NCBI RefSeq assembly: GCF_900099835.1
Contig: NZ_FNKP01000001.1
Coordinates: forward strand, 2,170,001-2,234,000
Direction of reading: 5' to 3'
Length of the DNA stretch: 64,000 nt
Origin: Paraburkholderia fungorum
GTDB taxonomy: Bacteria; Pseudomonadota; Gammaproteobacteria; Burkholderiales; Burkholderiaceae
Shown here: one piece after another, positions 20,416-37,688 of the stretch
How positions within the stretch are numbered: the first letter of the stretch is position 1
Layout of the letters: each line of letters starts with the position of its first letter
Notes under the pieces: generated by a model
Database searches by the model: none
The model's input: only the letters and a program-made list of their open reading frames with translations
What the model was told of the DNA's origin: nothing
Translations under genes and position numbers: made by a program

Positions 20416-20462
20416 GGCCTTCTCCTCTGTCCAGTTTTGGCCCGCATTGTCGTGGTTGGGAG

Positions 20463-20479
20463 CTTAACGGTTCCTTAAG
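20463..20479 (-). promoter_or_regulatory. PmrA/QseB-type box before the first two-component operon
   Basis: On the minus strand this reads CTTAAG-GAACC-GTTAAG: two half-sites with an 11-bp period. A -10-like GACAAT (20451-20446) follows 11 nt after it, so the box would cover the -35 region. This matches the known recognition pattern of PmrA/QseB regulators. One of four such boxes in the window. Confidence 0.72.
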
Positions 20480-21017
20480 ATCAGCGGCAAATCATGACAG
20501 ATTGGGGGTGCGGTTGATGCCGGCATCGATATTGTGATGCCTATCGCGATGGCCGCGTCGCGCGCGGCTGCGGGCTAGTGACAATCCGTCAGCGGCCAGG
20601 AACTGCGAAGGGAGTTATGTTCGTCATGTTCGAGGATGACGACGGGCAACGTCAATGTCATCGTAAGGCCCAGCCTTCTCTATAAACGAAGGAAGGAGGC
20701 GCTCGGGGCATCCCTGCTGCCGTGGATGGGACACGGCAATGTCAGGGCGAAGTACACCATCTCGTGGCGCAGTGACTCGTGGATAAGTCTCACCTACTCG
20801 GTTGGTTGCAAACGGCGCGGCAGGACACTGAACGACGAAAGAAAGGCCACCACGCGGCGGCCTTTCCTCAAGAGAAAATTGTCGCTCGCATTCAGTCAAT
20901 CATGCAACTCGACGTTGCAACGGCTGATACCCCTATATCAAGATAGACGCCACTCACCACGTGGGAGACTAGGGCAGCAACACTCCCTAAAATTTCCCAA
21001 TAGTGAGAAATCGTTCG
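20480..21017. other. Intergenic stretch at the edge of the accessory region
   Basis: No supported gene. At 20842-20865 AAAGGCC and GGCCTTT form a terminator-like hairpin on either strand. Open frames on both strands have codon use unlike the neighbours, and none shows a ribosome site. Base composition drops toward A+T from about 20.6 kb onward. Confidence 0.5.
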
Positions 21018-22028
21018 ATGACAAAGTGTGATAACCAACGTTGTCCAATCTGTTACCCGAACTGGAAAGAGGAAGAAGCTGCCGCAAAAAAGCGCGCAGA
21101 AGATGACCACCAGGACTGCATCAACTGTTGGCGCTTCTATCAGAAAAAAGCGGAAGCCATCGTTTCTGCCGGCGATCCGATCGCCCGTAACCGACGAATC
21201 AATGCGGCCTATGCGCGATTGTGGTTAGATGACCGCCGCTTCCAGTGGGCAGGACTGGCTGCATTCGCATCCAAACAAGTCGGATGCGGCCTGCTTAACG
21301 CCGCGGAGTTCATTAGCAAGTCAAATCGCGAACGCAACGCGTATCAGCAATGGGAAAAACAGAGCTCCCTGCTTGAACGGATGGCACCCTACGGATCGCC
21401 GCGCATGCCCATTCCCGATCAGGTCAACGGCGCTGGCGCCGGGAATGTTTATCAAATGCTTGCCAAGGGCAACACCGCGCTCTTCCTGGACATCTGGCCA
21501 CTGCACATGTTCTTTAAGGAGTTCGGTTTGCAGCGGTTCAAGCGCTGTCTGCAGGAGCGTCGGGAACTGAACGGATCGGTCGCATGGCCGCTCGCTGATA
21601 GCGTTCCGTTTGGGGTTACCAAAACGCAAGTTGTACAGGGGTTTGAAGCGATTGATGCTGGCGCTATCACTAAAAGTGTCGAATTACTCGCGTGGCATGA
21701 ACAGATCAACATTTTGCAACCGGCCATGTACGACGATCAGAACTTCGCTCTATTGATGCGGGCCAATCAGTTCGCATGGGCGCTGAACATTCCGACCGGA
21801 TCGGCGCGCGAAATCCAGCTAACGCTCGCCAACCAGTGCACCGTAACAGGCGCTAGTGCAAGATATGAAACGTTCAGCAAGGAGCCTTTGGCCAATCTTG
21901 CGGACGGCCGCCAGCGGATGGCGTTTGTTTTACGCGCTGCGCTGCGGTTCGATCAGCTCTTGAAGGACCCGATTCAGCGGCATTTTGTGGAGAATTCCCT
22001 GTTCCTTATCGCGCACGGAGACGCCTGA
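21018..22028 (+). CDS. Unassigned 336-residue protein with Cys motifs, possibly DUF2515-like
   Basis: A soluble-looking protein whose N-terminus carries two cysteine groups, CDNQRCPIC and DCINC, which could bind zinc. The middle contains a strongly patterned block (NAAEFISKSNRERNAYQQWEK, with GNTALFLDIWPLHMFFKEFG further on) and RANQFAWALNIPTG near the end. The blocks recall proteins labelled DUF2515 that appear near type VI secretion genes, but I hold this loosely. I used the ATG at 21018; a GTG at 21003 is the alternative. Its stop overlaps the ATG of the next gene, an arrangement usual for an effector and its partner. Lower G+C than the flanks suggests horizontal gain. Confidence 0.6.
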   Translation: MTKCDNQRCPICYPNWKEEEAAAKKRAEDDHQDCINCWRFYQKKAEAIVSAGDPIARNRRINAAYARLWLDDRRFQWAGLAAFASKQVGCGLLNAAEFISKSNRERNAYQQWEKQSSLLERMAPYGSPRMPIPDQVNGAGAGNVYQMLAKGNTALFLDIWPLHMFFKEFGLQRFKRCLQERRELNGSVAWPLADSVPFGVTKTQVVQGFEAIDAGAITKSVELLAWHEQINILQPAMYDDQNFALLMRANQFAWALNIPTGSAREIQLTLANQCTVTGASARYETFSKEPLANLADGRQRMAFVLRAALRFDQLLKDPIQRHFVENSLFLIAHGDA

Positions 22029-22651
22029 TGCAGATCACAAAACTTCATCGGCGTCGGCGCCTTGCTTGCGCAGGGTTTGTACTCACCGCCCTGTTGGCTA
22101 TTTACGCGATAGCGCGTCCATCGGATGAATTAGTGCTTGCGATTGGAGAGCCGTATGAACAGGTAAGGCTTCAGTCTCCGTCGGTCTTGCCGGCTATCGA
22201 GCCCGATGCAAACTGGGGTGGCTTGGCAAGCCGCCCTGCCCGATTGCGTTTCGTCGATCCCCAATACGGTTTTGTCGCTCCCGCAGCGAAATTCCTGGCG
22301 GTACATTACGACAGCAAGGGGAATGTCGACTCCGTTACGCTATCCCCGCAAGTGGCGACATTGCTCCTTGATGATGCGATGCAAGTCCTAACGGATTTGC
22401 AGGACCAGCTTCGACGCGGAGGGTGGAAGCCATTTCGAGAAGCACGAAGCCAGCCTATAGAAGACACGCCCGCGAGACGCGCAGAAATTCAAACGTGCGT
22501 GGCACCTACGAGCTATTGGCAAGCCGGAATCAAATACCAACTCTCGCTAAATATTCGCTGCTTTCGCAGCGAACAGCATCCGGACGATGAGCGTTACCTG
22601 ATCACGTTGGACCTGGGGCCGCCCGTCTTTGAAGACTCAGTTGTCCCTTGA
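22028..22651 (+). CDS. Unassigned membrane-anchored protein coupled to the preceding gene
   Basis: A 207-residue protein with one N-terminal membrane segment (LACAGFVLTALLAIYAIA) after a basic start, then an extracytoplasmic domain with no family I recognise. Two cysteines (near residues 157 and 178) could form a disulfide. There is no lipobox. The start overlaps the stop of the Cys-motif protein by one base, so the two are made together. A periplasm-facing anchored domain coupled to a soluble protein resembles a toxin-immunity or secreted-partner pair. That reading is inference from layout only. Confidence 0.6.
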   Translation: MQITKLHRRRRLACAGFVLTALLAIYAIARPSDELVLAIGEPYEQVRLQSPSVLPAIEPDANWGGLASRPARLRFVDPQYGFVAPAAKFLAVHYDSKGNVDSVTLSPQVATLLLDDAMQVLTDLQDQLRRGGWKPFREARSQPIEDTPARRAEIQTCVAPTSYWQAGIKYQLSLNIRCFRSEQHPDDERYLITLDLGPPVFEDSVVP

Positions 22652-23080
22652 GCGGTTGATAGCGTTTCGGTCGCCTCATGGGCTTACGCTAAAACAGTCC
22701 TGCAGGATCAGCCGCTCGCTCTCGACTGTAGATAATCAACGCCTATCGCTGCGCCATCCAATCCGCCCCTCCAACCATGTAGTCAATATCAGTCACCTCA
22801 TTCTGGAACGCCTCGAAAATCGCTCGCATCGTTGCGATGATCATTCACGCCCAAAATCGCCCTTCCCTTGATCCGGCTCCGAGAGGTACCGGCTAGTACG
22901 CGCCGGAGAACTCACGTTCATAAAACTTGGCACGCGCGCATCGGCAATTACAGAGGACAGTCTGTCCCACTTTGTCGCCACCCATACGAGGATCTTGGGA
23001 AATGGTAGCTAGCCAGGTAGCTGGTGGTCGGTATTCGGCAGCCAGGCCTTGCTGGCTATAGGCTTCAGTCATTTTTACGC
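22652..23080. other. Intergenic end of the accessory region
   Basis: About 430 bp with no supported gene on either strand. I see no tRNA, integrase, insertion-sequence end or attachment repeat that would define an island boundary. Confidence 0.5.
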
Positions 23081-23097
23081 TTAAGCGTTCCTTAAGC
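23081..23097 (+). promoter_or_regulatory. PmrA/QseB-type box before the RND efflux operon
   Basis: CTTAAG-CGTTC-CTTAAG is the most perfect of the four boxes: two identical half-sites, 11-bp period. It lies 79 bp upstream of the efflux operon's first start. TATTCT at 23121-23126 is a possible -10, but the spacing differs from the other sites. Confidence 0.72.
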
Positions 23098-23175
23098 CCC
23101 CCCTCTGCAAACTCGGCCCCTATTCTGCGGCATCCGTTTCCGGTTGCCGCCACTTCTTCATACAGGAGCCGGATT

Positions 23176-24615
23176 TTGCCCGTTTTCGACGCCGCGACTG
23201 CGGCTACACCCACGGTCATATCGAGCACGGCGTTGCGCCATCTGCGCAGGCTCACGCCCGTTTTCGCGGTGCTCGTCACCGGTTGCACGTGGTACCACCC
23301 TGAACCGCTTGCACCGCAAAACACGTCGACGTCCGCGCATTCGCTCGAACGTATCCAGATCGATTCGTCGAAGATGCCGCTGCCAGAGCTGGCCGCGCAT
23401 CGCTTCGATCCGTCCGACGGGCTCGATCTCGACGAACTCGCGATGCTCGCAGTCGCCAACAATCCCGATCTCAAACTGTCGCGCGACGACCTCGGCATAG
23501 CGCGCGCGCAAGCATATTCGGCGGGTTTGCTGCCCGATCCGCAACTAAGCGTGTCGAGCGACTATCCAGGCGAGCTCGGCACCACGCGCGCGTTCAACTA
23601 CGGCCTGAGCATCGACGTGATGGCGATCGTGTTGCGCAGCGCGAATAAACAATCCGCCGACGCCACCGTCGCCAAAACCGATCTCGGCCTGCTATGGCAG
23701 GAATGGCAGATCGTCGCGCAGGCGCGGCAACTGTTCATCAAGACGCGCTTTCAGCAGGACACGTTGCCGCTTCTCCAGCAACAGCGCGACCTCGCGCGTA
23801 CCCGCTACGAGCGCATGGCCGAAGCGCGTCGCGACGGCAACCTGACCGACGACACGCTGACCGCCGCGCTCACCGCTTACAGCGACGCCCGCAAGCAATT
23901 CTCCGACGCCGAACGCGCAGCCGAACAGACGCATCACGACCTGAACGCGTTGCTCGGCCTTGCGCCCGAGGTCCGCGTGCAGCTTTCGGGCGACGACCGC
24001 ATCGAACCGCTCACCGACACGGCACTCGACGCAACACTGCCCGGTCTCGCGCAACGCCGTCCCGATCTGATCGCACTGCAAGCCGGTTATCAGGCACAGG
24101 AGCAGAAATATCGCGCGGCGATCCTGAGCCAGTTTCCGAGCCTTTCCGTGGGCTTCGTACGCGCACGCGATACGTCGAACATCTACACCAGCGGCTTCCA
24201 GATCAACCTGAGCCTGCCGATCTTCAATCGCAATCAGGGCAACGTCGCGATCGAAAGAGCGACCCGTCAACGCCTGCGCGACGAATATCAAACGCGCTTG
24301 AATCAGGCCTATGCGGACGTCGCCCATCTTCGCGCGGACACCGTGATTCTCTCGCGTCAACTTCAGCAGACCGAAGCCGCATTGCCCGACGTGGACCTCG
24401 CCGCACAGCACGCCGCTGCGGCCTTCGCCGATCACAACCTCGCACTCGGCGCATACACCGATGCGCAAAGCGCGTCGCTCATCAAACGTATCGACATCGC
24501 GACACTGCGCGAATCGCTCGCCGAACAACGCGTTGGCTTGCAGGCGCTGCTAGGCAGTGCGATACCCGACGCCTTCACATCCGCTCAGACCTTCACCGAC
24601 TCTCATGCGAAATAA
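23176..24615 (+). CDS. Outer-membrane efflux lipoprotein, TolC/CusC family
   Basis: The outer-membrane channel of a tripartite efflux pump, 479 residues. A lipobox is visible (FAVLVTGC, Cys near residue 36), so the mature protein should be lipid-anchored like CusC/OprM. Two long helical repeats follow (DLKLSRDDLGIARAQAYSAG; YQAQEQKYRAAILSQFPSL), the duplicated TolC-type unit. The start codon at 23176 is TTG (ATTTTG in AGCCGGATTTTGCCC), with an AGGAG site about 8 nt before it. The gene overlaps the membrane-fusion gene by 11 bp. It follows the PmrA-type box and so is likely induced with the two-component systems nearby. Confidence 0.88.
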   Translation: MPVFDAATAATPTVISSTALRHLRRLTPVFAVLVTGCTWYHPEPLAPQNTSTSAHSLERIQIDSSKMPLPELAAHRFDPSDGLDLDELAMLAVANNPDLKLSRDDLGIARAQAYSAGLLPDPQLSVSSDYPGELGTTRAFNYGLSIDVMAIVLRSANKQSADATVAKTDLGLLWQEWQIVAQARQLFIKTRFQQDTLPLLQQQRDLARTRYERMAEARRDGNLTDDTLTAALTAYSDARKQFSDAERAAEQTHHDLNALLGLAPEVRVQLSGDDRIEPLTDTALDATLPGLAQRRPDLIALQAGYQAQEQKYRAAILSQFPSLSVGFVRARDTSNIYTSGFQINLSLPIFNRNQGNVAIERATRQRLRDEYQTRLNQAYADVAHLRADTVILSRQLQQTEAALPDVDLAAQHAAAAFADHNLALGAYTDAQSASLIKRIDIATLRESLAEQRVGLQALLGSAIPDAFTSAQTFTDSHAK

Positions 24616-25747
24616 CCCCTTTCCAGCGATGCGGCCGCGTATCGCCGCAGTCGTCATGTCCGCCGCGGCCTGCAGTGCACTCGCGTACATGACCATCCAC
24701 GCATCGCCTGCGGCAAGCGCCCCCGCAGCGGCACCGGACGCGTCGAGCCAACCCGTCGTATCCGTGCAAACCGTTCGCGTGCAGCAGGCAACGATTGCGC
24801 AACCGGTCCGTGCTTTCGGCATCGTCGCGGCATCCGCATCGAATCTGACGACAGTCAATCTGCCGTACGTCGCGCGAATCGTGCAGATGCGCGTGCAGTC
24901 CGGGCAAACGGTGACGCGCGGCACGCCGCTCTTCGCCGTGCAGGCCGACCCGGCCGCCGTGCTCGCCGCGACCCAGGCAAGAAGCGCGGTGACCCTCGCA
25001 CAGGGCGAACTGGCGCGCACACAGTCGCTGCTCGACAAAGGGCTTGCCACGCAGTCGCAACTCGCGACCGCCCGCAAGGCACTCGACGATGCACAGCAGG
25101 CCAGCGCCGCGCAGAACGAGACCGGCGTCGCGAGCGGCAACAAAATCGTGACCGCGCCGATCGACGGCGTGGTCATGCAACTGTCGGCCGCACAGGGCGA
25201 CCAGGTGCAGGCGGGCGCGCCAATCCTGCAGCTCGCGGGCGGCAATAGCCGCAATAGCCACGATTTGCGCGCCAACGTGACGCTAGGCGTCGAGCCGTCA
25301 GAAGCCGCCTCTATTCATGCGGGCGATTCCGTCACGTTGCGCGGCCTGTCCACCTCGCTCGCGAGAACCACGGCGAACGGCAGCGTGATGCTGGTCGGCG
25401 CAGCAGTCAACCAGCAGAGCCAGCTCGTCGACATCGGCGCGAACGTGCCGCTTGCCCAGACGCCGTTCATTCCGGGCACCCGCGTCAGCGCCGATATCGC
25501 GACCCGCGCCGGCACGCACTGGATCGTGCCGCGCGCGGCCGTGCTGAAAGACGACAAAGGCGCCTACGTTTTTCAGATTACCCCGCAAAACAAGGCTCGC
25601 CGTGTAGCGGTGATCACTCGTGTAGAAAACGGCGACCGCTATGGCGTGGATGGTCCGATCGATGCCGCGCAAGGACTCGTGGTCAGCGGCAACTATGAAT
25701 TGAAAGACGGCATGGCGGTGCGAACCAGCGGAGGCGCGCCGCAATGA
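24605..25747 (+). CDS. RND efflux periplasmic adaptor (membrane-fusion protein)
   Basis: A 380-residue adaptor linking the inner-membrane pump to the outer-membrane channel. A short N-terminal signal/anchor (IAAVVMSAAACSALAYMTI) is followed by a lipoyl/barrel-sandwich half (RIVQMRVQSGQTVTRGTPLF), an alpha-hairpin of about 75 residues (ATQARSAVTLAQGELARTQS), the second lipoyl half (KIVTAPIDGVVMQLSAAQGD), and beta-barrel and membrane-proximal domains. The start at 24605 lies inside the end of the channel gene, and its stop overlaps the pump start (GCAATGA), so all three are translationally coupled. No His/Met-rich metal segment is seen, which favours an organic rather than metal substrate. Confidence 0.9.
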   Translation: MRNNPFPAMRPRIAAVVMSAAACSALAYMTIHASPAASAPAAAPDASSQPVVSVQTVRVQQATIAQPVRAFGIVAASASNLTTVNLPYVARIVQMRVQSGQTVTRGTPLFAVQADPAAVLAATQARSAVTLAQGELARTQSLLDKGLATQSQLATARKALDDAQQASAAQNETGVASGNKIVTAPIDGVVMQLSAAQGDQVQAGAPILQLAGGNSRNSHDLRANVTLGVEPSEAASIHAGDSVTLRGLSTSLARTTANGSVMLVGAAVNQQSQLVDIGANVPLAQTPFIPGTRVSADIATRAGTHWIVPRAAVLKDDKGAYVFQITPQNKARRVAVITRVENGDRYGVDGPIDAAQGLVVSGNYELKDGMAVRTSGGAPQ

Positions 25748-28700
25748 ATTTCGGTCAATGGATGCAAACGCACCGGCGTTCGCTGCTGTTCGTGATTGCG
25801 CTGCTCGCGATTGCGGGCGCGCTCACCGCGTTCCGTCTGCCGATCTCGCTGTTTCCGAACGTCGCGTTTCCACGCGCCGTCATCTCGCTCGACGCAGGCG
25901 ACCGCCCCGCCGAACAGATGGCCACACTCGTCACGATGCCGGTCGAAGAAGCGCTGCGGCGGGTGCCGAACGTGCGCGACGTGGAATCGAAAACCAGTCG
26001 CGGCGCGGCCGAGATCTCGCTGAACTTCGACTGGGGCACCGACATGGCGCAAGCCACGTTGCAGGCGCAGGCGGCGCTCAGCGAAATTCTCGCGACGCTG
26101 CCACAAGGCACCTCGATGCAGGTCCGGCGCATGGACCCGACGGTGTTTCCGGTGCTCGCCTACAGCCTCACGTCGACGCAGCAGTCGCTATCGGCTCTGC
26201 ACGATCTGGCGCAATTCCAGATGCGGCCTCTGCTGTCTTCGGTGGAAGGCGTGGCGCGGGTCGATGTGACGGGCGGCGCTCAGGACGAGTTCGAAGTCGC
26301 CGTCGATCCCGCGCGCCTCGCCGCGTACAAGCTGTCGCTCGCGGATGTATCGAAGGCGATCGGCGCGAGCAACGTGCTGATGGCGAACGGCCGTATCGAA
26401 GATCACGACAAGCTGTATCTCGTGATTACCAACACCACCATCACGCAACTCGACGAACTGCGCAACGTGGTGGTGTCCGCGAACGGCGCGACGCAAATCC
26501 GTCTCGGCGACATCGCCACCGTTCGCCAGGGCGTGATGCCGCAATGGCTGCGCGTCACCGCCGACGGCCAGGACGCCGTGCTGCTCAACGTGTATCAGCA
26601 GCCGGGCGCGAACAGCGTGGCGATGGCGCGGGCGATCCGCGCGAAGATCGCCGACTTCCAGCATCAGATGCCGCCCGGCGTGCATCTGTCGAACTGGTAC
26701 GACCAGAGCGAACTGGTGATCGCGTCGGCCACCAGCGTGCGCGACGCGATCATGATCGGCGTGGTGCTGGCCGCGTTGACCCTGTTCGTGTTTCTGCGCA
26801 ACTGGAAGATCACCGCGATCGCGGTTGCGCTGGTGCCGGTCGTGATGGCCGCGACCATCCTGTTGCTCGACGTGTTCGGCATGGGCTTCAACATCATGAC
26901 GCTGGGCGGGATGGCGGCGGCAGTGGGTCTCGTCATCGACGATGCGATCGTGATGATCGAACATATCGTGCGACGCATGCGCGAAGGCGGCTCACGCGCA
27001 TTTCATGGCCGCGTGATGGCCGCCGCGCTCGAATTCACGCGGCCGCTGGCGGGATCGTCGGCGGCGACGTTGATCATCTTCGTGCCGCTGGCATTTTTGT
27101 CCGGCGTGACCGGCGCGTTCTTCAAGGCGCTGTCGGTGACGATGGCAAGCGCGCTGTTCATTTCGTTTCTCGTCACGTGGCTCGCGGTGCCGATTCTGTG
27201 CGACCGCTGGCTCAAACCGAAGGACGCCGAGGAGCATGCGGAAACGCGCTTCGCGTCGTGGATGAACCGGCGCTATGCATTCCTCGTCGAGCGCGTCACC
27301 GCCCGGCCGCTGCTCGTGCTGATCGGCCTCGTGCCGCTGATCGTGGTCGCCGCCATCGCGTTCACGCGAGTCGGCAGCGGCTTCATGCCGACCATGGACG
27401 AAGGCGGCTTCGTGCTCGACTACCACACGGAACCGGGCACGTCGATCACGGAGACCGACCGGCTGATGAAGCAGATCGAGGCCATCGTCCGCGCGAATCC
27501 GAATGTCGCGACTTACTCGCGTCGAACCGGAGCGGGCCTGGGTGGCGATCTGAACGAACCGAACAAGGGCGACTTTTTCGTCCGATTGAAGTCGGGCAAT
27601 CGTGAACCGATCGACACCGTGATGGAAGAAATCCGCTCGCAGGTCGAGACTCAGGTGCCCGGCGTCAGCGTCGAACTCGCGCAGTTGATGGAAGATCTGA
27701 TCGGCGACCTGACGGCCGTCCCGCAACCCGTGCAGATCAAGATTTTCTCCGACGACCAGAACACGCTCGACACCACCGCGCGCAAAGTCGCGGCCCGCAT
27801 CGGCCAGATTCAGGGCGTGGTGGATGTGAACGACGGCATCAATCCCGCCGGTGACGCGCTCGAATTGCACATCCTGCCCGCCGCAGCCGCAGCCGAAGGC
27901 ATGGACCCGCAATCGATCGCACAGGCCGTATCGGACATGGTCGAAGGCAACGTCGCGACGCAGTTCCAGAACGGCCCGAAAACGGTCGGCGTGCGAGTGC
28001 GAGTGGACGGCGCGTTGAAACTGACGGATACGCAACTCGGCCAGTTGCAGATACGCGCGCCGGACGGCCATCTGTTCGCGCTGAACCGCGTGGCCGATCA
28101 GATCAAGGTGACGGGTCAGCCGGAAATCAGCCGCGACAATCTGAAACGGATGGTGGCAGTCACCGCACGTATCGACGGACGCGATCTGGGCTCGACCATC
28201 GCCGACGTGCAGAAAGCGCTCGGCGACAAGAGCCTGTTACCCACCGGCGTGTACTACGAGCTGGGCGGTTTGTATCAGCAGCAGCAGATTGCGTTCAAGG
28301 GCTTGCTGACGGTGTTCGGCGCGGCGATTGCGCTCGTGTTCGGCTTGCTGCTGTTTCTGTACGAACGCTTTCGCGTCGCGCTGGCGGTGATGGCGATGCC
28401 GTTGCTCGCAGCGGGCGCGGTATTCATCGGCTTATGGATCACCGGCATCGAGTTGAACATCTCCGCAATGATGGGCATGACGATGATTATCGGCATCGTC
28501 ACCGAGGTCGCGATTTTCTATGTGTCGGAATTGCAGTCGCTGGTGCGTGAGGAAATGCCGTTCGATGAGGCATTGTTGAGCGCGGGCCGCAATCGTCTGC
28601 GCCCTATCGCGATGACGACGATAGCCGCGATTCTCGCGTTGCTGCCGCTGGCATTCGCGCTCGGGCAAGGTTCGGCGATGCAGCAGCCGCTGGCGATTGC

Positions 28701-28791: not shown

Positions 28792-28803
28792 CGCGTGTTG
28801 TTT

Positions 28804-28850: not shown

Positions 28851-28878
28851 CACGTATGGCACGCCACATCGACGCCGG

Positions 28879-29700: not shown

Positions 29701-31015
29701 CGGAAGCCTCCATGGCGTCCATTGCGGTCAGACGTCCATTGCGTGCATCGAACACATTGAGTGCGGGCGACGTATCGACCGGCACGCGCGCGCCGCGCCA
29801 CATCACATGCGAACCGGTCCACGCGCTCAGCCATTGCAACGTCAGCAGCAGATCGCGTAACGGCACAAGCGGCAGATCGCGCCAGAACCGCTGCTGATGA
29901 CGCGCCGCACGCAGATGCAGCAGCAAACGCGCGGCCAGTCCGCTCGCTGCGATCCCCGTACTCAGGAGCGCGGCGGCGATGTGCGGATGGCCGCAAGAGC
30001 CGGCCGACAGCAGTCCGGTCAGCCACGCGCCGGCCAGCAGCCACGGCGTCGTGAACGTGATCAGCAAAGACGCGAATCCCGGCGGATTCACCGAGCGGAT
30101 CGTGCGCAGCCAGCGCGTCTCGCGCTGCCATAGCGCGGTAAAAGTCGGCTCGATCACATCGGTGGCGACCATCACGCGCGACAGCACCGTTTGCAGGCCG
30201 AGGGCGCGTACGTGCTCGGCGAGCCAGTAGTCGTCGGCGAGACAGTTTTTCAGCGCGTCGAAACCGCCGATGCGTTCGAGCGTCGCGCGCCGCAACGCGA
30301 GGGTCGCGCCGAAACCGAAACGGCGCGAACCCATCGCATGCGCGACACGCACCGACGGAGCAAACCATTCGTTGATGAAAAGCGCGCCCACACGCGGCCA
30401 GAAGCCGCCCACGCCCTCCGCGACGTACAGACAGGTGACGACGCCTACGCGCGGGTCCGCGAGCGGCGCAGCGACGCTATCGAGATAATCGGCTTCGACG
30501 GCGATGTCGCTATCGGCGATCACGATCAGATCGTGCCGCGCATGCTCCGCCATGTTGATCAGATTGCTGACCTTGAGATTGCTCCCATGCACGCGCGGAT
30601 CGACGGCAAGTTCGATGTCGTGTGCCGGATAGGCGGCCTGCAGCCGGCGCACCACGGCAATCGCCGGATCGTCGGGCGACGACACACCGAGCACCAGCTG
30701 AAAGTGCCGGTGCCGCTGCTCGCAAAAGGTCCGCAGGTTTTCATAGAGACGCGGCTCAGCGCCGCACAGCGGTTTGAGCACGCTGACGCCGACCTGCGCA
30801 AATGAACCTGACGTTGACGAGCTGGTTGCGCTGGAATCGTAGTGGGAGTGTGTTGCGGAGAAACCGGACGAACGACGCCGGCCGGCAAGTGTGCGATGTG
30901 TGCGGCGGGGGCCGAAAAACGGCATCGCTACCGCTGCGAAAACCGCGTACAGCGTCGCGCACATGCAGCCGGCCAGCAGAATCCATTCGCATGCCGTCAA
31001 AGCGTGCGCCGCCAT
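29690..31015 (-). CDS. hpnI: HpnI-like glycosyltransferase (GT21/ceramide-glucosyltransferase type)
   Basis: A membrane-bound glycosyltransferase of 441 residues. A TM segment at the N-terminus is followed by a Ser-rich insert (about 48-72) that the second copy lacks. The GT-A catalytic part has SVLKPLCGAEPRLYENL, the DxD-like ADSD, the general base in CLADDYWLAEH and the RETRW(LRT) acceptor motif. Two or three C-terminal TM segments follow. Its partner HpnK overlaps it, so this copy is the better HpnI candidate: transfer of N-acetylglucosamine to bacteriohopanetetrol. A second copy of the same family lies at 34968-36143. Confidence 0.85.
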   Translation of the reverse strand: MAAHALTACEWILLAGCMCATLYAVFAAVAMPFFGPRRTHRTLAGRRRSSGFSATHSHYDSSATSSSTSGSFAQVGVSVLKPLCGAEPRLYENLRTFCEQRHRHFQLVLGVSSPDDPAIAVVRRLQAAYPAHDIELAVDPRVHGSNLKVSNLINMAEHARHDLIVIADSDIAVEADYLDSVAAPLADPRVGVVTCLYVAEGVGGFWPRVGALFINEWFAPSVRVAHAMGSRRFGFGATLALRRATLERIGGFDALKNCLADDYWLAEHVRALGLQTVLSRVMVATDVIEPTFTALWQRETRWLRTIRSVNPPGFASLLITFTTPWLLAGAWLTGLLSAGSCGHPHIAAALLSTGIAASGLAARLLLHLRAARHQQRFWRDLPLVPLRDLLLTLQWLSAWTGSHVMWRGARVPVDTSPALNVFDARNGRLTAMDAMEASDGN

Positions 31016-31027
31016 TGTCCGCGCCTG

Positions 31028-31384
31028 TCAATGTCCGGCCAGCACGAACGGCTTACCTGTCAGCCGTAAATGAAGAATGACGAGCCAGCGCCGCGGACAA
31101 TCGGCGTCTACCGCGAATTCGACCGGCCATGCGGCCCGGTTGACCGGCATCGTGTGATGTTTTTCGACAGCGGATTCGAAGGCGGCCTGCGCGAATTCGC
31201 GCGCAGCGATGACTCCACCGAGGATCACCACGATCGCAAACAGCCTGAACGACGTGGAGCCGAAGAATTGCTGCGACACCGGCAACACCAGCAGCGCGAC
31301 GCAGACCAGCGCTTCCGTGCCCACGGCAGTGAGCGAAGCAACCAGCAGATGGGCTCGCAGCATGTCGACGGTGACTGTTTTCAT
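31028..31384 (-). CDS. Small membrane protein at the head of the hpnI-hpnK operon
   Basis: A 118-residue protein with two hydrophobic segments (LLVASLTAVGTEALVCVALLV; LFAIVVILGGVIAAREFA) and a C-terminal soluble tail, of no family I recognise. I used the ATG at 31384, from which MKTVTVDMLRAH runs; upstream extension is not supported by a ribosome site. It ends 12 bp before the glycosyltransferase start. Placed first in the operon, it may act in hopanoid handling, but only location supports this. Confidence 0.65.
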   Translation of the reverse strand: MKTVTVDMLRAHLLVASLTAVGTEALVCVALLVLPVSQQFFGSTSFRLFAIVVILGGVIAAREFAQAAFESAVEKHHTMPVNRAAWPVEFAVDADCPRRWLVILHLRLTGKPFVLAGH

Positions 31385-31573
31385 AACAGAAGTCTCGTGA
31401 CCTGATGGGATGCTTGGCGCGTTGATCAACGCGATTCGTCGAGGCGATTTGCCGGAATAAAACTCCGTGCTCACGCTATCGACATACTTTCAATCACGCC
31501 GCGACAACCTGACAAAACACCTGTTTCATCTGTTCGGAAAAAGGCCGCGCGACTGGGGGTCTATTGAGGGGCG

Positions 31574-31606
31574 ATAGTATCGATTCAAGCTGAAGGAAAC
31601 CTTAAG
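31574..31606 (-). promoter_or_regulatory. PmrA/QseB-type box and -10 of the hpnI-hpnK operon (also divergent to the second two-component operon)
   Basis: Read toward the minus-strand operon: CTTAAG-GTTTC-CTTCAG (31606-31590), 10 nt, then TACTAT (31579-31574) as -10. The same box read on the plus strand points toward the response-regulator gene at 31723, where TTAAAA (31617-31622) sits 10 nt downstream of it. A 19-nt core AAGCTGAAGGAAACCTTAA recurs unchanged before hpnJ. Confidence 0.72.
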
Positions 31607-31722
31607 CATCCGCGTGTTAAAACGCTCACTGAACAGGATGGTTCAACTCAGGATGCAGCAGTCGGCACTTGCATAAAAGTGCTTACCGTTGTGCAATAAA
31701 CATCAAAACGGAATCCCCACCC

Positions 31723-32382
31723 ATGCGCGTACTTCTCGTAGAAGACGACGATCTGATCGGCTGCGGTATCGAAGCCGGGATGCGTCAAGCCGGCTTCACG
31801 GTCGACTGGGCGCGCGACGGCCACAAGGCCGGACTTGCGCTCACCACCACCGTTTATGCACTGGTCATTCTCGACCTCGGTTTGCCTCGTGTATCGGGCA
31901 TGGAATTGCTCAGACGTCTGCGCGATTCCGGCAAGGACGTGCCGGTGCTCGTACTGACCGCGAAAGGCACGGTGGTCGACCGGGTCGGCGGACTCGAAGC
32001 GGGTGCCGACGACTATCTCGGCAAGCCCTTCGATCTCACCGAACTGATCGCGCGTTGCCGCGCCCTGCTGCGGCGCGCGCAAGGCCGCAGTGTCGAGTTG
32101 ATCCGCTATCAGGATCTGACCGTCAATCCGGCTGCGCAGACGGTCGAGGTATCCGGCACGCGCGTGCCGCTCACGTCGCGCGAATGGGCGGTGCTGATGC
32201 AGCTGCTGACCCATCAGGGCATTCCGCAATCGCGCTCGCGGCTCGAGGAAAGCCTGTACGGCTGGCAGGAAGAAATCGAAAGCAATGCGATCGAGGTCCA
32301 CGTGTCCAACCTGCGCAAAAAGCTCGGCGCGACGCTGATCAGAACGGTGCGCAATATCGGCTACGTCGTGGAGAAACTGTGA
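31723..32382 (+). CDS. OmpR-family response regulator, QseB/PmrA type (second system)
   Basis: A 219-residue regulator with receiver (EDDD, phospho-Asp51 in ILDLGLPRVSG, KPFD lysine) and winged-helix domain (SLYGWQEEIESNAIEVHVSN), very like the regulator at 19753-20415. The ATG at 31723 begins MRVLLVEDDD, the typical N-terminus. It is placed between two hopanoid operons that both carry CTTAA-type boxes, and it shares one of these boxes with the divergent operon, so it is the most economical candidate to control hopanoid modification and itself. Its stop overlaps the kinase start. Confidence 0.93.
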   Translation: MRVLLVEDDDLIGCGIEAGMRQAGFTVDWARDGHKAGLALTTTVYALVILDLGLPRVSGMELLRRLRDSGKDVPVLVLTAKGTVVDRVGGLEAGADDYLGKPFDLTELIARCRALLRRAQGRSVELIRYQDLTVNPAAQTVEVSGTRVPLTSREWAVLMQLLTHQGIPQSRSRLEESLYGWQEEIESNAIEVHVSNLRKKLGATLIRTVRNIGYVVEKL

Positions 32383-33785
32383 TGGGCGCGTCGATCCGCC
32401 GACGCCTGGTGCTGCTGGTTCTCGCCAGCATCGTGCTGTGCTGGGGAATCGCGCTGGTGTCCAGTTATCGCCAGGCCACCCGCGAACTCGGCGAATGGGA
32501 AGATGCGCGCATCGCCGAACTCGCGCAGATTCTCGCGCTGCTCGACCAGCACAATCTGATCACGCTCGCGAACGCGCGCATCGACGTGCGTGAAGAAGAA
32601 AAAGGCGGCGAGCCGGGCGCCAACGATCTCGACGACGACGACTCGTTGCCGCGCGATGCGCTGTTCCAGGTGCGCAACGCGAACGGCGACATTCTCGCGG
32701 GCAGCCCGCCGTTGCATGCGCTGAACGCATGGGACCTGCCGGTGCCGCCGGTCAGCGGCGCGCGCGACATTACGCTCGGCGGCCAGATGTATCACTCGTT
32801 CACGTTGCGCGACACCGCGCTCGGCCATACCGTGCGCGTCTTCGAACCCGCCAATACGCGTAGCGATCTGGTGAGCGGCGTCGCCAGCCGGATCGCGCGG
32901 CCCACGCTCGTCGCGTTGCCGCTGCTCGCGCTGCTGGTGTGGTTCAGCATCGGCTGGAGTCTCGCGCCGCTGAAGGTGCTGTCCAACGCCATCCGCTCGC
33001 GCGACATCCACCGGATGGAGCCGGTCGACATCGGCCACGTGCCGACCGAGGTGCGGCCGCTGGTCGACGCGATCAATCTGATGCTGTCGCGCTTGCTGAA
33101 CGCACTGGAACGCGAGCGCGCATTTACCGCCGACGCCGCGCATGAACTGAAGACGCCGCTCGCCGCGATCAAGGTGCAGGCGCAGGTCGCGCTCGCCGAA
33201 CCGGACACCGCATTGCAGCGGCTCGCCATGCAGCGGGTGGTGCAAGGTGTGGATCGCAGCGCGCGGCTAGCGGAGCAATTGCTGCTGCTGGCGCGTCTGG
33301 ACGTGCAGGAGAAATTGTCGGCGGTACCGCTCAAGCCCGCGACTGTCGCGAAGAACGCGCTGCTGGCCAATGAGCGCAACGCGCAGCAGAAGAGCATCAG
33401 CGTGATGCTGATGGGCGACATGCGCGCCGAAATCTATGCGGAGCCGGTGCTGATCGGCATTCTGCTCGACAACCTGCTCGATAACGCGATCAAGTACGGA
33501 CGCACGGGCGGCAATATCGAGGTCGCCGTGCAACATGCGAACGACCGCGTGCAGGTCACCGTGCGTGACGACGGCCCCGGCGTGGCGGCCGACGACCTCG
33601 CGCGTCTGACGAACCGCTTTTTTCGCGCGACAGGGAATCAGGCTACCGGGAGCGGTTTGGGGCTGTCGATTGTCGCGCGCATCGCCGAACATTTTGGCGC
33701 GAGCCTGCGCATGGGAGCGGGTATTGGCGAGCTCGGGCTGGCGGTCGAGGTGTCGTTTCCGGCCTATGCGCCGGTGCAGCAGTGA
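32382..33785 (+). CDS. Sensor histidine kinase, QseC/PmrB type (second system)
   Basis: A 467-residue kinase: TM1 (LVLLVLASIVLCWGIALVSS), a periplasmic domain of about 135 residues with a markedly acidic patch (NDLDDDDSLPRD, about residue 80-95), TM2 (PTLVALPLLALLVWFSIGW), H-box AHELKTPLAAI, N-box LDNLLDNAIKYG, and G-boxes DGPGVAAD and GSGLGLSIV. An acidic periplasmic patch can sense divalent cations or cationic peptides in PhoQ/PmrB-like kinases; here that is inference. Its ATG overlaps the regulator stop by one base. It ends 36 bp before the convergent hpnL-like gene. Confidence 0.92.
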   Translation: MGASIRRRLVLLVLASIVLCWGIALVSSYRQATRELGEWEDARIAELAQILALLDQHNLITLANARIDVREEEKGGEPGANDLDDDDSLPRDALFQVRNANGDILAGSPPLHALNAWDLPVPPVSGARDITLGGQMYHSFTLRDTALGHTVRVFEPANTRSDLVSGVASRIARPTLVALPLLALLVWFSIGWSLAPLKVLSNAIRSRDIHRMEPVDIGHVPTEVRPLVDAINLMLSRLLNALERERAFTADAAHELKTPLAAIKVQAQVALAEPDTALQRLAMQRVVQGVDRSARLAEQLLLLARLDVQEKLSAVPLKPATVAKNALLANERNAQQKSISVMLMGDMRAEIYAEPVLIGILLDNLLDNAIKYGRTGGNIEVAVQHANDRVQVTVRDDGPGVAADDLARLTNRFFRATGNQATGSGLGLSIVARIAEHFGASLRMGAGIGELGLAVEVSFPAYAPVQQ

Positions 33786-33821
33786 ACCGAACGGGCGAGG
33801 CCCGATGCACGCCCGGCAAGC

Positions 33822-34865
33822 TCAATGGCGATGAGTCTCGCCGGCCACCGTTTGCTCCGCCATCTCCACCCGCGCCTCCCTCTGCCCACCGCTGGAAGCG
33901 CGGTTCGACGACTCGAAAAACTGCCACGCCACCAGCCCGGGAACGAACATCAGCAGATCGCGAATCCGCCGCGCACCGGCGAGTGCGAGACAGGTGGGCG
34001 CATCGAGTCCGAGCGCGCCGCCGATCAGGATGAACCCGCCCTCCTGCACGCCCAGACCGCCCGGCACAAAGAACGCCGCGCTGCTGACCGCCTGGATCAG
34101 CGATTCGATCACCACGGCTTCGACGAGCGTGACGGGCGCGCCGAGGAAATACAGCGCAAGCCAGATTTCCAGCGACGTCAGGAAGCTTTGCAGCGGCTGC
34201 CAGAAGAACAGATAGCGCAACACCACCGCGCGGCGACGCCAGATCAGCCGGATGGCCTGATCGATCTGCGCGGATTGCCCCACGAGAGCGGCGAGCTTGC
34301 CGCTCGTCATCCGGTTGAGCACGCGTGTGATGCGCTCGAACGGACTCGCATGCTGCACGAGCGCGAACAGCACCAGCAATGGAGTGAGCACCACGACGCC
34401 CCACGCGAGTTGTCCGGCGAGCCGCAACGTGCCGGACTGCGCATGCGCGAACAGAAAGCCGATGCCGACCATCGTGAACAGCAACTGGCTGATGACCGTG
34501 AGCTGCATGTCGACGACGATGCTGCCCACCGCCGTCGACGGTTTCACGCCCCAGCGCCTGAGCATGCGGAACGACACGACTTCGCCGCCGATCCGCGCGA
34601 CCGGCAGCATGCTGTTGACCGACTCGCGCACCCAGACCAGATGCAGCATGCTGCCGATGCCGGGCCGGTTTGCGCCGCGAATCAGCGAGCGCCAGTCGAT
34701 GGCATTGGCGAGCATCGGCAGCACGTGAACCAGCGCGGCCAGCACGAGGCCCGCGCCGGCCGCGCGCAGTGCGCCGAGTACCGCGCCAGGGTTGCTCTGC
34801 CACACGAGCCACAGCGACAGCACCAGACCGGCAAGCGCGGCGAAGCGGCCAAGATGTTTCATCAC
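33822..34865 (-). CDS. hpnL: HpnL-like membrane protein (UPF0104/LPG-synthase TM family)
   Basis: A 347-residue integral membrane protein with 7-8 hydrophobic segments and the family's central block, including VREVSNSMLPVARIGGE-like (here VRESVNSMLPVARIGGEVVSF) and SAAFFVPGGLGVQEGGF. This is the lysyl-phosphatidylglycerol synthase transmembrane domain without a synthetase part. The version encoded beside hopanoid genes has been named HpnL. It may flip or deliver a hopanoid intermediate; the reaction is not known. It follows the second glycosyltransferase by about 100 bp on the same strand and has a charged C-terminal tail. Confidence 0.83.
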   Translation of the reverse strand: MMKHLGRFAALAGLVLSLWLVWQSNPGAVLGALRAAGAGLVLAALVHVLPMLANAIDWRSLIRGANRPGIGSMLHLVWVRESVNSMLPVARIGGEVVSFRMLRRWGVKPSTAVGSIVVDMQLTVISQLLFTMVGIGFLFAHAQSGTLRLAGQLAWGVVVLTPLLVLFALVQHASPFERITRVLNRMTSGKLAALVGQSAQIDQAIRLIWRRRAVVLRYLFFWQPLQSFLTSLEIWLALYFLGAPVTLVEAVVIESLIQAVSSAAFFVPGGLGVQEGGFILIGGALGLDAPTCLALAGARRIRDLLMFVPGLVAWQFFESSNRASSGGQREARVEMAEQTVAGETHRH

Positions 34866-34967
34866 GCGGACACCTCGCGCGCGCGTTGCTCTGCGATTGC
34901 CGCCGTCCTCTTTGTGGAACGCGGTCGTTCAGAAAACCCATGCATCATTGCCAATCCAGCCTGCCAT

Positions 34968-36143
34968 TCATATCTGTTCGACCTGTTCGTCCTGCGCGGC
35001 CGACAACAGGCCGTCGCCGTCCACCTTGAAACTGAAGCCTCGCCAGATCACCCGCGACGACCAGAAGCTCGCGACAAAAATCGCAAACGATACGAGGTCC
35101 CACAGCGGCAGCAGCCACAGGTCGCGATGCGGTTGCCGCAATGCGCGGTCCAGCAGCAGCTTCAGCGTGAGCCGCGCGCACATCGCCGCGAACGCGAGTT
35201 GCCACGCCCACAGCGTGCCGCCCGAAAAGGCGACCGCCAGCAACGCGAACGCGAGCGGATGAATCAGCGCCGAGCCGAAATGACCGAGCGGATCGATACG
35301 CCGGATCGTCCGGCTCCAGCGCAGTTCATGCGAGATCAACTGCGTCGCGCTCGATTCGACGCACGCATGCGAAATCGTGAACGGCGGAATCACCACCTTT
35401 TCGCCGATCTGACGCACGGCCTCGCCGATCGCGTGATCGTCGGCGAGATGCCGCACGAACGGCATGAAGCCGCCGATTTTGTCCAGCGTATCGCGGCGCA
35501 TCGCGATGGTCTGTCCGAAACACGGACGCGCGAGGCCGAGCGCGAGTCCGGTCACGACGCTGGGTAAAAACTGGTAGTTGGTGGCCTTGGCCGACATGCG
35601 CGGCCAGAAACCCGGATCGGGTTGTCCGCGATACACGCAGGTGACGAGCCCCACGTCAGGCCTCTGCAATTCGCCGATCACGTTGCGCAGATAATCGGGC
35701 GCGACGCTCACGTCGCTATCGGCGAACACCAGCACATCGTGCAGCGCATGCGGCAGCATGTTGACGATATTGCTGATCTTGCGATTGGGACCATAAAGGC
35801 GCGCATCGGCGATCACGGTGATGTCCGCCTTGGGATGCAGCCGCCGCAGTTCCTCAACGGCTTGCAGCGCGGGGTCGGTCGAATCGTGTACGCCAAACAG
35901 AAATTGCACAGGACCAGGATAGTCCTGCTGACAGAAGCTCGCCAGATTGGCGAGCAATGCCCACTCGGTGCCGTGCAGCGGCTTGACGATCGTCACCGGT
36001 GGATAGCTGGCCGGCTGCGCCACCGGCCGCCTGAAAAAACGCCCGATCAGCACACCGGTCAGCGCGGTGTACCCGAGCCCGAAGACCGCGCCCGCCGCGC
36101 ACGCGTAACCCAACGTGACGGCGAGCAGGTGCGTGGCGCTCAC
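34968..36143 (-). CDS. Second HpnI-like glycosyltransferase of the hopanoid locus
   Basis: A 391-residue GT21-type enzyme with an N-terminal TM segment, the catalytic block VTIVKPLHGTEWALLANL, DxD-like FADSD, base motif HLADDHAIG, acceptor motif HELRWSRT, and C-terminal TM segments. Layout and motifs match the copy at 29690-31015, but it lacks that copy's Ser-rich insert. Its ATG overlaps the HpnJ stop by 4 bp, so it is coupled to the radical-SAM gene. Two copies in one locus could mean two sugars or two acceptors, or a redundant pair; the sequence does not decide this. Confidence 0.85.
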   Translation of the reverse strand: MSATHLLAVTLGYACAAGAVFGLGYTALTGVLIGRFFRRPVAQPASYPPVTIVKPLHGTEWALLANLASFCQQDYPGPVQFLFGVHDSTDPALQAVEELRRLHPKADITVIADARLYGPNRKISNIVNMLPHALHDVLVFADSDVSVAPDYLRNVIGELQRPDVGLVTCVYRGQPDPGFWPRMSAKATNYQFLPSVVTGLALGLARPCFGQTIAMRRDTLDKIGGFMPFVRHLADDHAIGEAVRQIGEKVVIPPFTISHACVESSATQLISHELRWSRTIRRIDPLGHFGSALIHPLAFALLAVAFSGGTLWAWQLAFAAMCARLTLKLLLDRALRQPHRDLWLLPLWDLVSFAIFVASFWSSRVIWRGFSFKVDGDGLLSAAQDEQVEQI

Positions 36144-37561
36144 GCCTCGTGTGCGCGCAGGAAACGGAAGAATTCGACGCCTTCACGCAAGCGCCGCTTC
36201 ATCATGTCCCAACTCGTCAGCATCTCGCGCAGGATTTCCCAGATCTTCGATGGACGGAAATAGAAACGTTTATAGAAGTTCTCGAGCTGGTGATACATCT
36301 CGTCGCGCGACAGATCCGGATAGCCGATCGCCGCGAGTTGCACGCCTTTCTTGCTGACGAGATTGATGACCTTGTTCTCTTCGAGCCAACCGCTTTCCAC
36401 TGCCTGCTTATACAACGTGGTGCCCGGATAAGGCGCGGCGAGCGACACCTGGATGGTCAGCGGATTGATCTCTTTCGCGTACTCGATGGTCTTCTGGATT
36501 GTTTCCGGCGTCTCGCCCGGCAGACCCAGAATAAAAGTGCCATGAACCTTGATGCCGAGCGTGCGGCAGTCTTTCGCAAAACGACGCGCGATATCGGTGC
36601 GCAAGCCCTTTTTCACGTTCAGCAGAATCTGGTCGTCGCCCGATTCATAGCCGACCAGCAGCAGACGCAGACCGTTTTCCTTCATGATCTTCAACGTCGC
36701 GAAGGGCACGTTTGCCTTGGCGTTGCAGGACCACGTCACGCCGAGCTTGCCCATGCCGCGGGCAATTTCCTCAGCTCGCGGCTTGAAGTCGGTGAAGGTG
36801 TCGTCGTCGAACATGATCTCCTTGACTTCGGGCATGTTGTCGCGAATCCACTTCACTTCTTCCAGCACGTTTTCGACCGAACGCACGCGATAGCGATGAC
36901 CGCCGACGGTTTGCGGCCACAGGCAGAACGTGCATTTCGAACGGCAGCCACGGCCCGTATAGAGCGAGATATACGGATGTTTCAGGTAGCCGTTGAAGTA
37001 GTTCTTGATCGTCAGATCGCGCTTGTAAATTGGTGCTACAAACGGCAGTTCGTCCATGTTCTCGAGGATCGGACGTGCTTCGTTATGCTCGATCGATCCA
37101 TCGGCGTTGCGATAACTGAGGCCCTTGATGTCGGCGAACGGCTTGCCTTCCGAGACTTCCTTGCACGTGAAGTCGAATTCTTCGCGGCCCACGAAGTCGA
37201 TGGCGTCGCTCGCGGTCAGCGAGTTATGCGGATCGACTGCGACCTTTGCGCCGACCATGCCGATCAGCAGCGAGGGCTTGCGCTTCTTGAGGTCTTCGGC
37301 GAATAAAGCGTCGGTGGGAAACGACGGTGTGCTGGTGTGAATGACCACCAGATCGTATTGCTGTGCAATGTCTAGCGTTTGTTCGACGGACAGGCCGTCT
37401 GCGGTGGCGTCGAGTACGCGGCTGTCGGCGATGAGTGCGGCGGGCTGCGCAAGCCACGTGGGATACCAGAACGAGCGGACTTCACGCTTGGCCTGGTAGC
37501 GCGAACCCGCACCACCGTCGAAGCCGTCATACGACGGCGCCTGCAAGAACAGAGTTTTCAT
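36140..37561 (-). CDS. hpnJ: HpnJ-like B12-binding radical-SAM protein
   Basis: A 473-residue radical-SAM enzyme. The N-terminal cobalamin-binding-like Rossmann part (about 1-160) precedes the cluster motif GRGCRSKCTFC with C206, C210 and C213. SAM-site features FDDDTF and GLPGET follow in the barrel. HpnJ contracts the glucosamine ring of glucosaminyl-bacteriohopanetetrol to the cyclopentane cyclitol ether. With hpnI/K-like genes present, the full set for that head group is here. It is first in its operon (hpnJ, glycosyltransferase, hpnL) and has a box and -10 upstream. Confidence 0.92.
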   Translation of the reverse strand: MKTLFLQAPSYDGFDGGAGSRYQAKREVRSFWYPTWLAQPAALIADSRVLDATADGLSVEQTLDIAQQYDLVVIHTSTPSFPTDALFAEDLKKRKPSLLIGMVGAKVAVDPHNSLTASDAIDFVGREEFDFTCKEVSEGKPFADIKGLSYRNADGSIEHNEARPILENMDELPFVAPIYKRDLTIKNYFNGYLKHPYISLYTGRGCRSKCTFCLWPQTVGGHRYRVRSVENVLEEVKWIRDNMPEVKEIMFDDDTFTDFKPRAEEIARGMGKLGVTWSCNAKANVPFATLKIMKENGLRLLLVGYESGDDQILLNVKKGLRTDIARRFAKDCRTLGIKVHGTFILGLPGETPETIQKTIEYAKEINPLTIQVSLAAPYPGTTLYKQAVESGWLEENKVINLVSKKGVQLAAIGYPDLSRDEMYHQLENFYKRFYFRPSKIWEILREMLTSWDMMKRRLREGVEFFRFLRAHEA

Positions 37562-37655
37562 GGACGCTCCAGCAAGCCTGTTAGGCGCTTTTCAGTTTTC
37601 TGGGGAAGAAACTTTCGAAACTATTGCCCCGCATGGATGCGAGAAGGTGGCGCAA

Positions 37656-37688
37656 ATAGTACGGAGCGAAGCTGAAGGAAACCTTAAC
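37656..37688 (-). promoter_or_regulatory. PmrA/QseB-type box and -10 of the hpnJ operon
   Basis: Read on the minus strand: GTTAAG-GTTTC-CTTCAG (37688-37672), 10 nt, then TACTAT (37661-37656). Box, spacing and -10 match the hpnI-hpnK promoter at 31574-31606. The start codon of hpnJ is about 90 nt downstream. Confidence 0.74.

Follow-up and report, generated by a model that had tools for sequence, protein, structure and literature searches.

Two operons for hopanoid head groups, a tripartite resistance–nodulation–division (RND) efflux operon and two two-component systems (response regulators RR1 and RR2 with histidine kinases HK1 and HK2) lie together in one locus of Paraburkholderia fungorum, and four short direct-repeat boxes stand before them (Table 1). 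The window, i.e. the whole stretch of DNA that was analysed, is 64 kb of contig NZ_FNKP01000001.1 (positions 2,170,001 to 2,234,000). Hopanoids are sterol-like membrane lipids. Their head-group genes form one operon in the order hpnJ, second hpnI and hpnL, and a separate sm118-hpnI-hpnK operon; both HpnI copies, HpnK, HpnJ and HpnL all pass the curated NCBIfam cut-offs, and the nearest named HpnJ is that of P. metrosideri at 98% (records very near the window were possibly excluded). The steps of HpnI, HpnK and HpnJ lead to the bacteriohopanetetrol (BHT) cyclitol ether (PMC12583986). In the efflux operon, the RND adaptor scores above the TIGR01730 cut-off, and the permease and outer-membrane factor (OMF) score below the curated cut-offs of their matching families. 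A preliminary description of this DNA had placed the four boxes before these operons, and rightly so, with two additions: the first gene of the hpnI-hpnK operon is sm118, and hpnJ is followed by a second copy of hpnI and then by hpnL. All four positions hold a box, one of them being shifted by a letter (the efflux box lies at 23080–23096, not at 23081–23097).

Table 1. Coordinates of the boxes, promoter elements and genes of the locus, numbered from the first letter of the window; box letters are from direct reading
Feature	Position	Strand	Remarks
Class B box CTTAAG-GTTTC-CTTCAG, divergent promoter common to sm118-hpnI-hpnK (-) and RR2-HK2 (+)	31590..31606	-	CTTAAGGTTTCCTTCAG; between sm118 and RR2
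-10-like TACTAT, sm118-hpnI-hpnK promoter	31574..31579	-	10 nt from box
-10-like TAAAAC, RR2-HK2 promoter	31618..31623	+	11 nt from box; TATAAA in several relatives
Class B box GTTAAG-GTTTC-CTTCAG before hpnJ	37672..37688	-	GTTAAGGTTTCCTTCAG
-10-like TACTAT, hpnJ promoter	37656..37661	-	10 nt from box
Class A box CTTAAG-N5-GTTAAG before RR1	20463..20479	-	CTTAACGGTTCCTTAAG on the (+) strand; putative autoregulation
-10-like GACAAT, RR1 promoter	20446..20451	-	11 nt from box
Class A box CTTAAG-N5-CTTAAG before the tripartite RND efflux operon	23080..23096	+	CTTAAGCGTTCCTTAAG
RR2, PmrA/QseB-like OmpR-family response regulator	31723..32382	+	
HK2, QseC/PmrB-like histidine kinase	32382..33785	+	
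RR1, PmrA/QseB-like response regulator	19753..20415	-	
HK1, QseC/PmrB-like histidine kinase	18380..19762	-	
sm118, conserved 118-aa protein, first gene of the hpnI-hpnK operon	31028..31384	-	
hpnI copy a, BHT glycosyltransferase	29690..31015	-	TIGR03472 454 bits, cut-off 310
hpnK, deacetylase	28879..29700	-	TIGR03473 408 bits, cut-off 232.6
hpnJ, radical S-adenosylmethionine (SAM) enzyme, cyclitol-ether step	36140..37561	-	TIGR03471 816 bits, cut-off 577.6
hpnI copy b	34968..36143	-	TIGR03472 500 bits, cut-off 310
hpnL, flippase-like membrane protein	33822..34865	-	TIGR03476 339 bits, cut-off 195.65
Tripartite RND efflux operon	23176..28791	+	OMF 23176-24615; adaptor 24557-25747; permease 25744-28791

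The boxes are PmrA-type direct repeats in promoters, as had been proposed, with a CTTAAG half-site repeated head-to-tail across a 5-nt spacer (N5). Both hopanoid promoters have the 19-nt core TTAAGGTTTCCTTCAGCTT in common, with TACTAT at an identical distance of 10 nt, exactly as first described. The pattern STTAASN5CTTMAG gave five strand-hits at four places in the window, compared with 0.01 on average and at most 1 in 100 dinucleotide shuffles, so the four boxes are not a chance occurrence. The looser CTTAAGN5CTTAAG with three mismatches was not significant in the window (eight hits versus a shuffle mean of 4.5). A scan of the whole genome (8.58 Mb, four contigs), which the preliminary description had called for, found 14 strand-hits of STTAASN5CTTMAG at 11 places and 8 hits for the reversed control, a mild enrichment, but four of the 11 places fall in one 17-kb part of the window. 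The loose box is therefore no genome-wide marker by itself, and its crowding into 17 kb is the unusual part.

In the window and in the promoters of relatives, the boxes fall into two classes. Class A, before RR1 and the pump, is CTTAAG-N5-(C/G)TTAAG followed after 11 nt by GACAAT or a weak hexamer, and class B, before sm118-hpnI-hpnK and hpnJ, is CTTAAG-GTTTC-CTTCAG followed after 10 nt by TACTAT or a similar hexamer. A rule-based scan found (C/G)TTAAG exactly 11 nt before RAYAAT in 48 of 65 distinct RR1 promoters, and at six other spacings (8–10 and 12–14 nt) only one of the 65 had a half-site with RAYAAT. Towards RR2, the shared box is followed at 9–12 nt by a -10-like hexamer in 30 of 45 sequences; on the side of the hpnJ boxes that faces away from hpnJ, none was found at this distance in 24 sequences. 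The RR1 and efflux boxes are a separate type from the hopanoid boxes. The single network joining both systems that was first described keeps its PmrA-type boxes, but these form two classes that differ in the second half-site and in the spacing to the -10; as this spacing differs and co-occurrence (see below) parts RR1 from RR2, we rejected one network for all four boxes as the principal interpretation.

The class B box and its -10 are conserved amid near-random flanks. Pairwise identity averaged over 20 non-redundant hpnJ promoters is 0.90 in half-site 1, 0.91 in N5, 1.00 in half-site 2, 0.74 in the spacer, 0.76 in the -10 and 0.27–0.40 in the flanks; for 32 hpnI promoters the values are 0.96, 0.88, 1.00, 0.73, 0.90 and 0.27–0.43, respectively, those of the two half-sites being partly fixed because the promoters were selected by half-site pattern. 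A second set of 18 hpnJ and 28 hpnI promoters, from which loci fetched via a match to the box plus -10 were left out, gave 0.91 and 0.93 for N5, 0.77 and 0.78 for the spacer, 0.76 and 0.90 for the -10, and 0.28–0.47 for the flanks.

The distribution of class B was followed with a strict element, STTMAGN5CTTCAGN10TASNAT (box, 10 nt and -10), in a genus sample of 97 Paraburkholderia genomes and a family sample of 200 genomes from 25 genera, with the reversed pattern as control. There are 95 matches in 51 of the 97 Paraburkholderia genomes and no match of the reversed pattern in the same 97. Classified by position (divergent and at most 400 nt from RR2, or at most 400 nt upstream of hpnJ), 44 lie in the RR2-divergent promoter, 37 before hpnJ and 14 elsewhere; conservation before the same operons in relatives, named beforehand as support, is borne out. 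Eight of the 14 also precede hopanoid head-group genes, which brings the hopanoid-linked total to 89 of 95: sm118-hpnI (G265 and contig C1 of G183), sm118 (G204), hpnI-hpnK (G136 and G040), a second-type hpnI (G222), an hpnJ fragment followed by hpnI (G183 C2) and, in G270, a cytochrome-b561-like gene (named by eye) followed by hpnK. In the family sample, the strict element occurs in 13 of 200 genomes, 12 of these being Paraburkholderia, and we rejected on these counts that it is a general feature of hopanoid loci. No class B box was found before hpnJ in the contiguous hpnI-hpnJ-hpnK loci scanned (30 loci in one scan, with starts found for part of them). The complete element belongs to one lineage and does not mark hopanoid loci at large.

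Some related sites were seen along the way. In a genome that is neither Paraburkholderia nor Caballeronia (G016), CTTAAGATTTCCTTAAG lies upstream of a contiguous hpnI-hpnJ-hpnK-hpnL locus (L268, 7781). The variant CTTAAGGT-N3-CATCAG, with a TA-rich -10-like hexamer after about 10 nt, occurs at L094 (9430), L104 (9781), L106 (9782) and L135 (11734); the genes behind these variants are hpnJ or sm118, the loci have no local RR2, and another regulator is perhaps the reader. At L202 and L208, from G238 and G143, the strict element has similar flanks in both and no evident hopanoid gene nearby.

The presence of the strict element follows RR2. With RR2 defined at 75% identity or more, it occurs in 44 of 45 genomes with the regulator and in 7 of 52 without (p=9e-19), and RR1 shows nothing of the kind, as 47 of the 88 genomes that have it and 4 of the 9 that lack it carry the element (p=0.73); these p-values and the one below ignore ancestry and linkage. 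Because RR2's own promoter holds a box, the comparison was repeated on hpnJ only: a boxed hpnJ is present in 37 of the 43 genomes with hpnJ and such an RR2, and in none of the 46 with hpnJ but no such RR2 (p=4e-19). Three of the six misses carry the element with a decayed first half-site (G230, G273 and G246) and two are hpnJ copies without the element (G225 and G157). The sixth, G206, is the sole genome with an RR2 of at least 75% that lacks the strict element; this genome is reduced (5.2 Mb), its RR2 has an internal stop, and its hopanoid boxes persist with changed -10 elements (L058/L245). Three genomes with no RR1 match at 1e-90 (G209, G219 and G251) keep both hopanoid boxes. Less prone to linkage are these three and also G183, whose RR2 is on C2 and whose boxed hpnJ and sm118-hpnI are on C1, and G136 and G040, where boxed hpnI-hpnK operons lie on contigs other than that of RR2; in G183 RR2, if it is the reader, therefore acts in trans. 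The earlier proposal that both systems act on the hopanoid genes stands as to the family of the regulators, described next, but co-occurrence assigns the hopanoid boxes to RR2 and not to RR1.

RR1 and RR2 both consist of a PF00072 receiver and a PF00486 OmpR-type winged helix, and both belong to the PmrA/QseB subgroup, as had been recognized: their best NCBIfam family is PmrA and the second best QseB, though they score below the equivalog cut-offs of PmrA (245.8 bits for RR1 and 227.0 for RR2; cut-off 330) and, by a wide margin, of QseB (236.5 and 223.7; cut-off 345). They are PmrA-like, not PmrA proper. The best family of HK1 and HK2 is QseC, with PmrB among the next, at 217/258 bits and far below the equivalog cut-off of 475. 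The closest solved chains of both regulators are those of PmrA/BasR (8jo2, 4s04/4s05). The base-reading residues of Klebsiella pneumoniae PmrA are N188, N196 and R210, and their replacement by alanine weakens DNA binding and abolishes activation (PMC4660055). An ungapped alignment shows that RR2 keeps all three in 45 of 45 distinct orthologues, and that RR1 keeps N188 and R210 with S196 in 65 of 65; the preceding position 195 is S in all 45 RR2 and H in all 65 RR1 orthologues. These residue patterns agree with two related, distinct DNA specificities, without proving them.

We consider it probable, at roughly 0.8, that RR2 controls the BHT-glucosamine/cyclitol-ether branch and itself, and that RR1 controls itself and the pump. 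HK2 would phosphorylate RR2, which would form a head-to-tail dimer on CTTAAG-N5-CTTCAG, from -39 to -23, the box taking the place of a -35 element. From there it would activate the promoters of sm118-hpnI-hpnK and hpnJ-hpnI-hpnL as well as, in the opposite direction from the first box, that of RR2-HK2 itself. The numbering is derived from the -10-like hexamer, set at -12 to -7, which puts half-site 1 at -39 to -34 and half-site 2 at -28 to -23; half-site 1 shows no -35 consensus by eye, which fits an activator. RR1 would run a sister circuit on CTTAAG-N5-CTTAAG sites in its own promoter and that of the RND pump. If PmrA is a guide, the signal is likely to be envelope stress or cationic peptides. 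It is from the observed sites, with their specificity, conservation, co-occurrence and geometry, that we infer binding, phosphorylation, activation rather than repression, and the signal.

Several observations weigh against this assignment. The loose box is only mildly enriched genome-wide, as noted above, and six of the 95 strict matches have no evident hopanoid link (G238, G143, G223, G205, G221 and G253); the one in G223, a genome without an hpnJ match at 1e-150, resembles an hpnJ-promoter sequence. The rule weakens when RR2 is taken at 60% identity (48 of 59 genomes with, 3 of 38 without), ten genomes have an RR2 of 67–73% but no strict element, and G221, G222 and G270 have one match each but no RR2 at 1e-90. 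The Salmonella PmrA box joins CTTAAG across N5 to a verified second half-site XTTAAT (PMC3973317), which differs from the CTTCAG of class B. Part of the co-occurrence is linkage by descent, because RR2 adjoins most boxes, and activation is read from the geometry alone. The genomes with an RR2 of 67–73% may mark a diverged subfamily with variant boxes, such as those before sm118 and RR2 in three contiguous loci with an RR2 of 70–71% (L063–L065).

Other readers of the hopanoid boxes can be weighed on the same data. RR1, alone or jointly with RR2, would make one PmrA-like network for pump and hopanoids; the (C/G)TTAAG half-site common to both classes, the PmrA-like nature of both regulators and their place in one locus speak for it, as do Caballeronia loci in which RR1 lies with an hpn gene inside 3.6 kb (10 of 30) and the class A box before some hpnI-a. 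We regard it as unlikely, however, as RR1 does not predict the hopanoid boxes in Paraburkholderia, the three RR1-less genomes keep both of them, the H195-S196 pair of RR1 and the S195-N196 pair of RR2 are invariant in their 65 and 45 orthologues, and the box classes are unlike in half-site 2 and -10 spacing. Less probable still is a third PmrA-like regulator encoded elsewhere, with RR2 as an autoregulated passenger of the locus. In its favour, three genomes have a match but no RR2, and other regulators of about 59–76% identity to RR1 exist; against it, such a protein would have to share RR2's distribution across 97 genomes. That the boxes are inherited promoter text without a regulator, kept by common descent of a young locus, is hardly credible: nearly all matches come from related genomes and the full element persists beside the hpnJ fragment of G183 C2, but the box is nearly invariant in flanks that are near random, hpnI-hpnK operons on contigs other than that of RR2 carry the same element in G136 and G040, and the strict element precedes hpnJ in none of the 46 genomes lacking an RR2 of at least 75%. 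Control of the hopanoid boxes by RR2 remains the reading we prefer.

The history of the locus and the class A boxes extend this picture. The RR1 and pump promoters adjoin in G264, and in the window their boxes are about 2.6 kb apart (20480–23079, 55% GC), an interval that holds a DUF2515 gene (21003–22028) and an open reading frame without a Pfam match (22028–22651); both promoters keep their box, and to us the 2.6 kb looks like DNA inserted in the lineage that led to the window. As for 11-bp arrays between RR1 and the pump, a strict unit rule counts 2–5 consecutive units per relative and shuffles reach 2–3, so that long arrays are not claimed. At this locus P. metrosideri has neither hpnI-a nor hpnK, and most of the pump is missing too. 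Of 30 Caballeronia loci, 28 have a class A box no more than 200 nt from RR1, one of the misses being cut by a contig end, and by best-scoring matches RR1 lies beside hpn genes in 10 of 30 and beside the pump outer-membrane gene in 4 of 30. The class A box precedes 7 of 23 hpnI-a rows (two of them being one site) and 0 of 8 hpnI-b rows, and RR1 may control hopanoids in this genus. In one locus of this genus, that of C. glathei (L044), RR2 is present and a class B box precedes hpnJ.

The loose pattern matches seven other places in the genome (L005–L011), and near these are genes for an M23 peptidase (L006), a TonB-receptor plug protein (L009) and a Fur-like protein, with an extracytoplasmic function (ECF) sigma factor beyond (L010). 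Loose sites of the two relatives G020 and G264 align with four sites each of the window's own genome: both hopanoid sites and the Fur-gene site in either case, plus L005 in G020 and the RR1-pump site in G264. The remaining loose-pattern sites may be chance or sites of other regulators, and no loose-pattern match was found near the hopene cyclase, a core hopanoid gene, at G000:C2:2888659. Before the Fur-family-like gene (named by eye), CTTAAG-N5-CTTAAG lies 9 nt from TACATAGTTCGG and is kept in three genomes (L010, L307 and L310); it is perhaps the target of a third PmrA-like regulator. The first gene of the hpnI-hpnK operon, sm118, has 163 homologues, and among the matches listed the named ones are mostly from Paraburkholderia or "Burkholderia sp.", with one from Pararobbsia. 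No Pfam domain was found in the best 120 of the 163, and NCBIfam gives one match, far below threshold; by eye the protein is hydrophobic, an unannotated hopanoid-linked gene product. Farther along the window, at about 41300–41600, a simple repeat gives long LPLPLP and GSGSGS reading frames beside ssu-type ATP-binding cassette (ABC) transporter genes.

In summary, good comparative support is found in many soil and plant Paraburkholderia for a real, lineage-specific and very compact PmrA-like regulon on hopanoid head-group genes, with RR2 as its putative regulator. Hopanoid head-group choice is little understood, and the head groups serve as biomarkers and are thought to tune membranes (PMC12583986). 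On the more tentative reading set out below, RR2 would control almost only itself and the enzymes that add glucosamine, expose the amine and make the cyclitol ether. With mostly two promoters per genome and the candidate regulator beside one of them, the head-group question becomes testable by one deletion strain and lipid analysis.

PmrA in Salmonella switches on defences against antibiotic peptides, and PmrA targets put amine groups on lipid A. The boxes described here resemble the PmrA box in their CTTAAG half-site, N5 and head-to-tail repeat, and the first half-site of the hopanoid promoters lies at the -35 position, as the first PmrA half-site does in pbgP (PMC4660055, PMC3973317). Class A is like the PmrA box in half-site 1 and spacing, but its half-site 2 is CTTAAG or GTTAAG and not XTTAAT. 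The systems differ further in that the target here would be the hopanoid head group and not lipid A, and in that RR1 is without N196. Tentatively, and with some doubt, the comparison suggests that PmrA logic, in which an attack on the envelope is sensed and an outer-membrane lipid is capped with amines, may have been retargeted in Paraburkholderia from lipid A to hopanoids, with RR2 as a near-dedicated, self-amplifying head-group switch and RR1 of Caballeronia wired separately to hpnI-hpnJ-hpnK. Aminoarabinose is an essential, constitutive part of lipid A in Burkholderia, and in the B. cepacia complex polymyxin resistance has been linked to hpnJ (PMC4244539); a PmrA-type circuit acting on hopanoid amines would solve the same problem in another way.

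In the searched literature, which was covered in part and mostly at the level of titles and abstracts, no PmrA/QseB-type control of hopanoids is reported, in line with the preliminary description, which had held control of hopanoid head groups by a PmrAB/QseBC-like system to be undescribed. That a two-component system can control a hopanoid operon is already described, because the BesRS system of Burkholderia thailandensis induces an efflux operon (met) together with a putative operon for hopanoids (hbs) (mBio 2022). Its induction occurs under polymyxin B or ampicillin and its wide regulon includes penL; BesR was aligned with ParR, RstA and CpxR, its box consists of TGCG repeats, and its hopanoid site is stated to need experimental verification (PMC9426598). 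By this published description, BesRS is set apart from RR1 and RR2, whose boxes are unlike TGCG repeats and whose best families are PmrA and QseB. The arrangement of the target genes differs as well: hpnI-hpnJ-hpnK-hpnL are contiguous in the Burkholderia and most of the Cupriavidus loci fetched, whereas here they are split into two boxed operons with a second hpnI.

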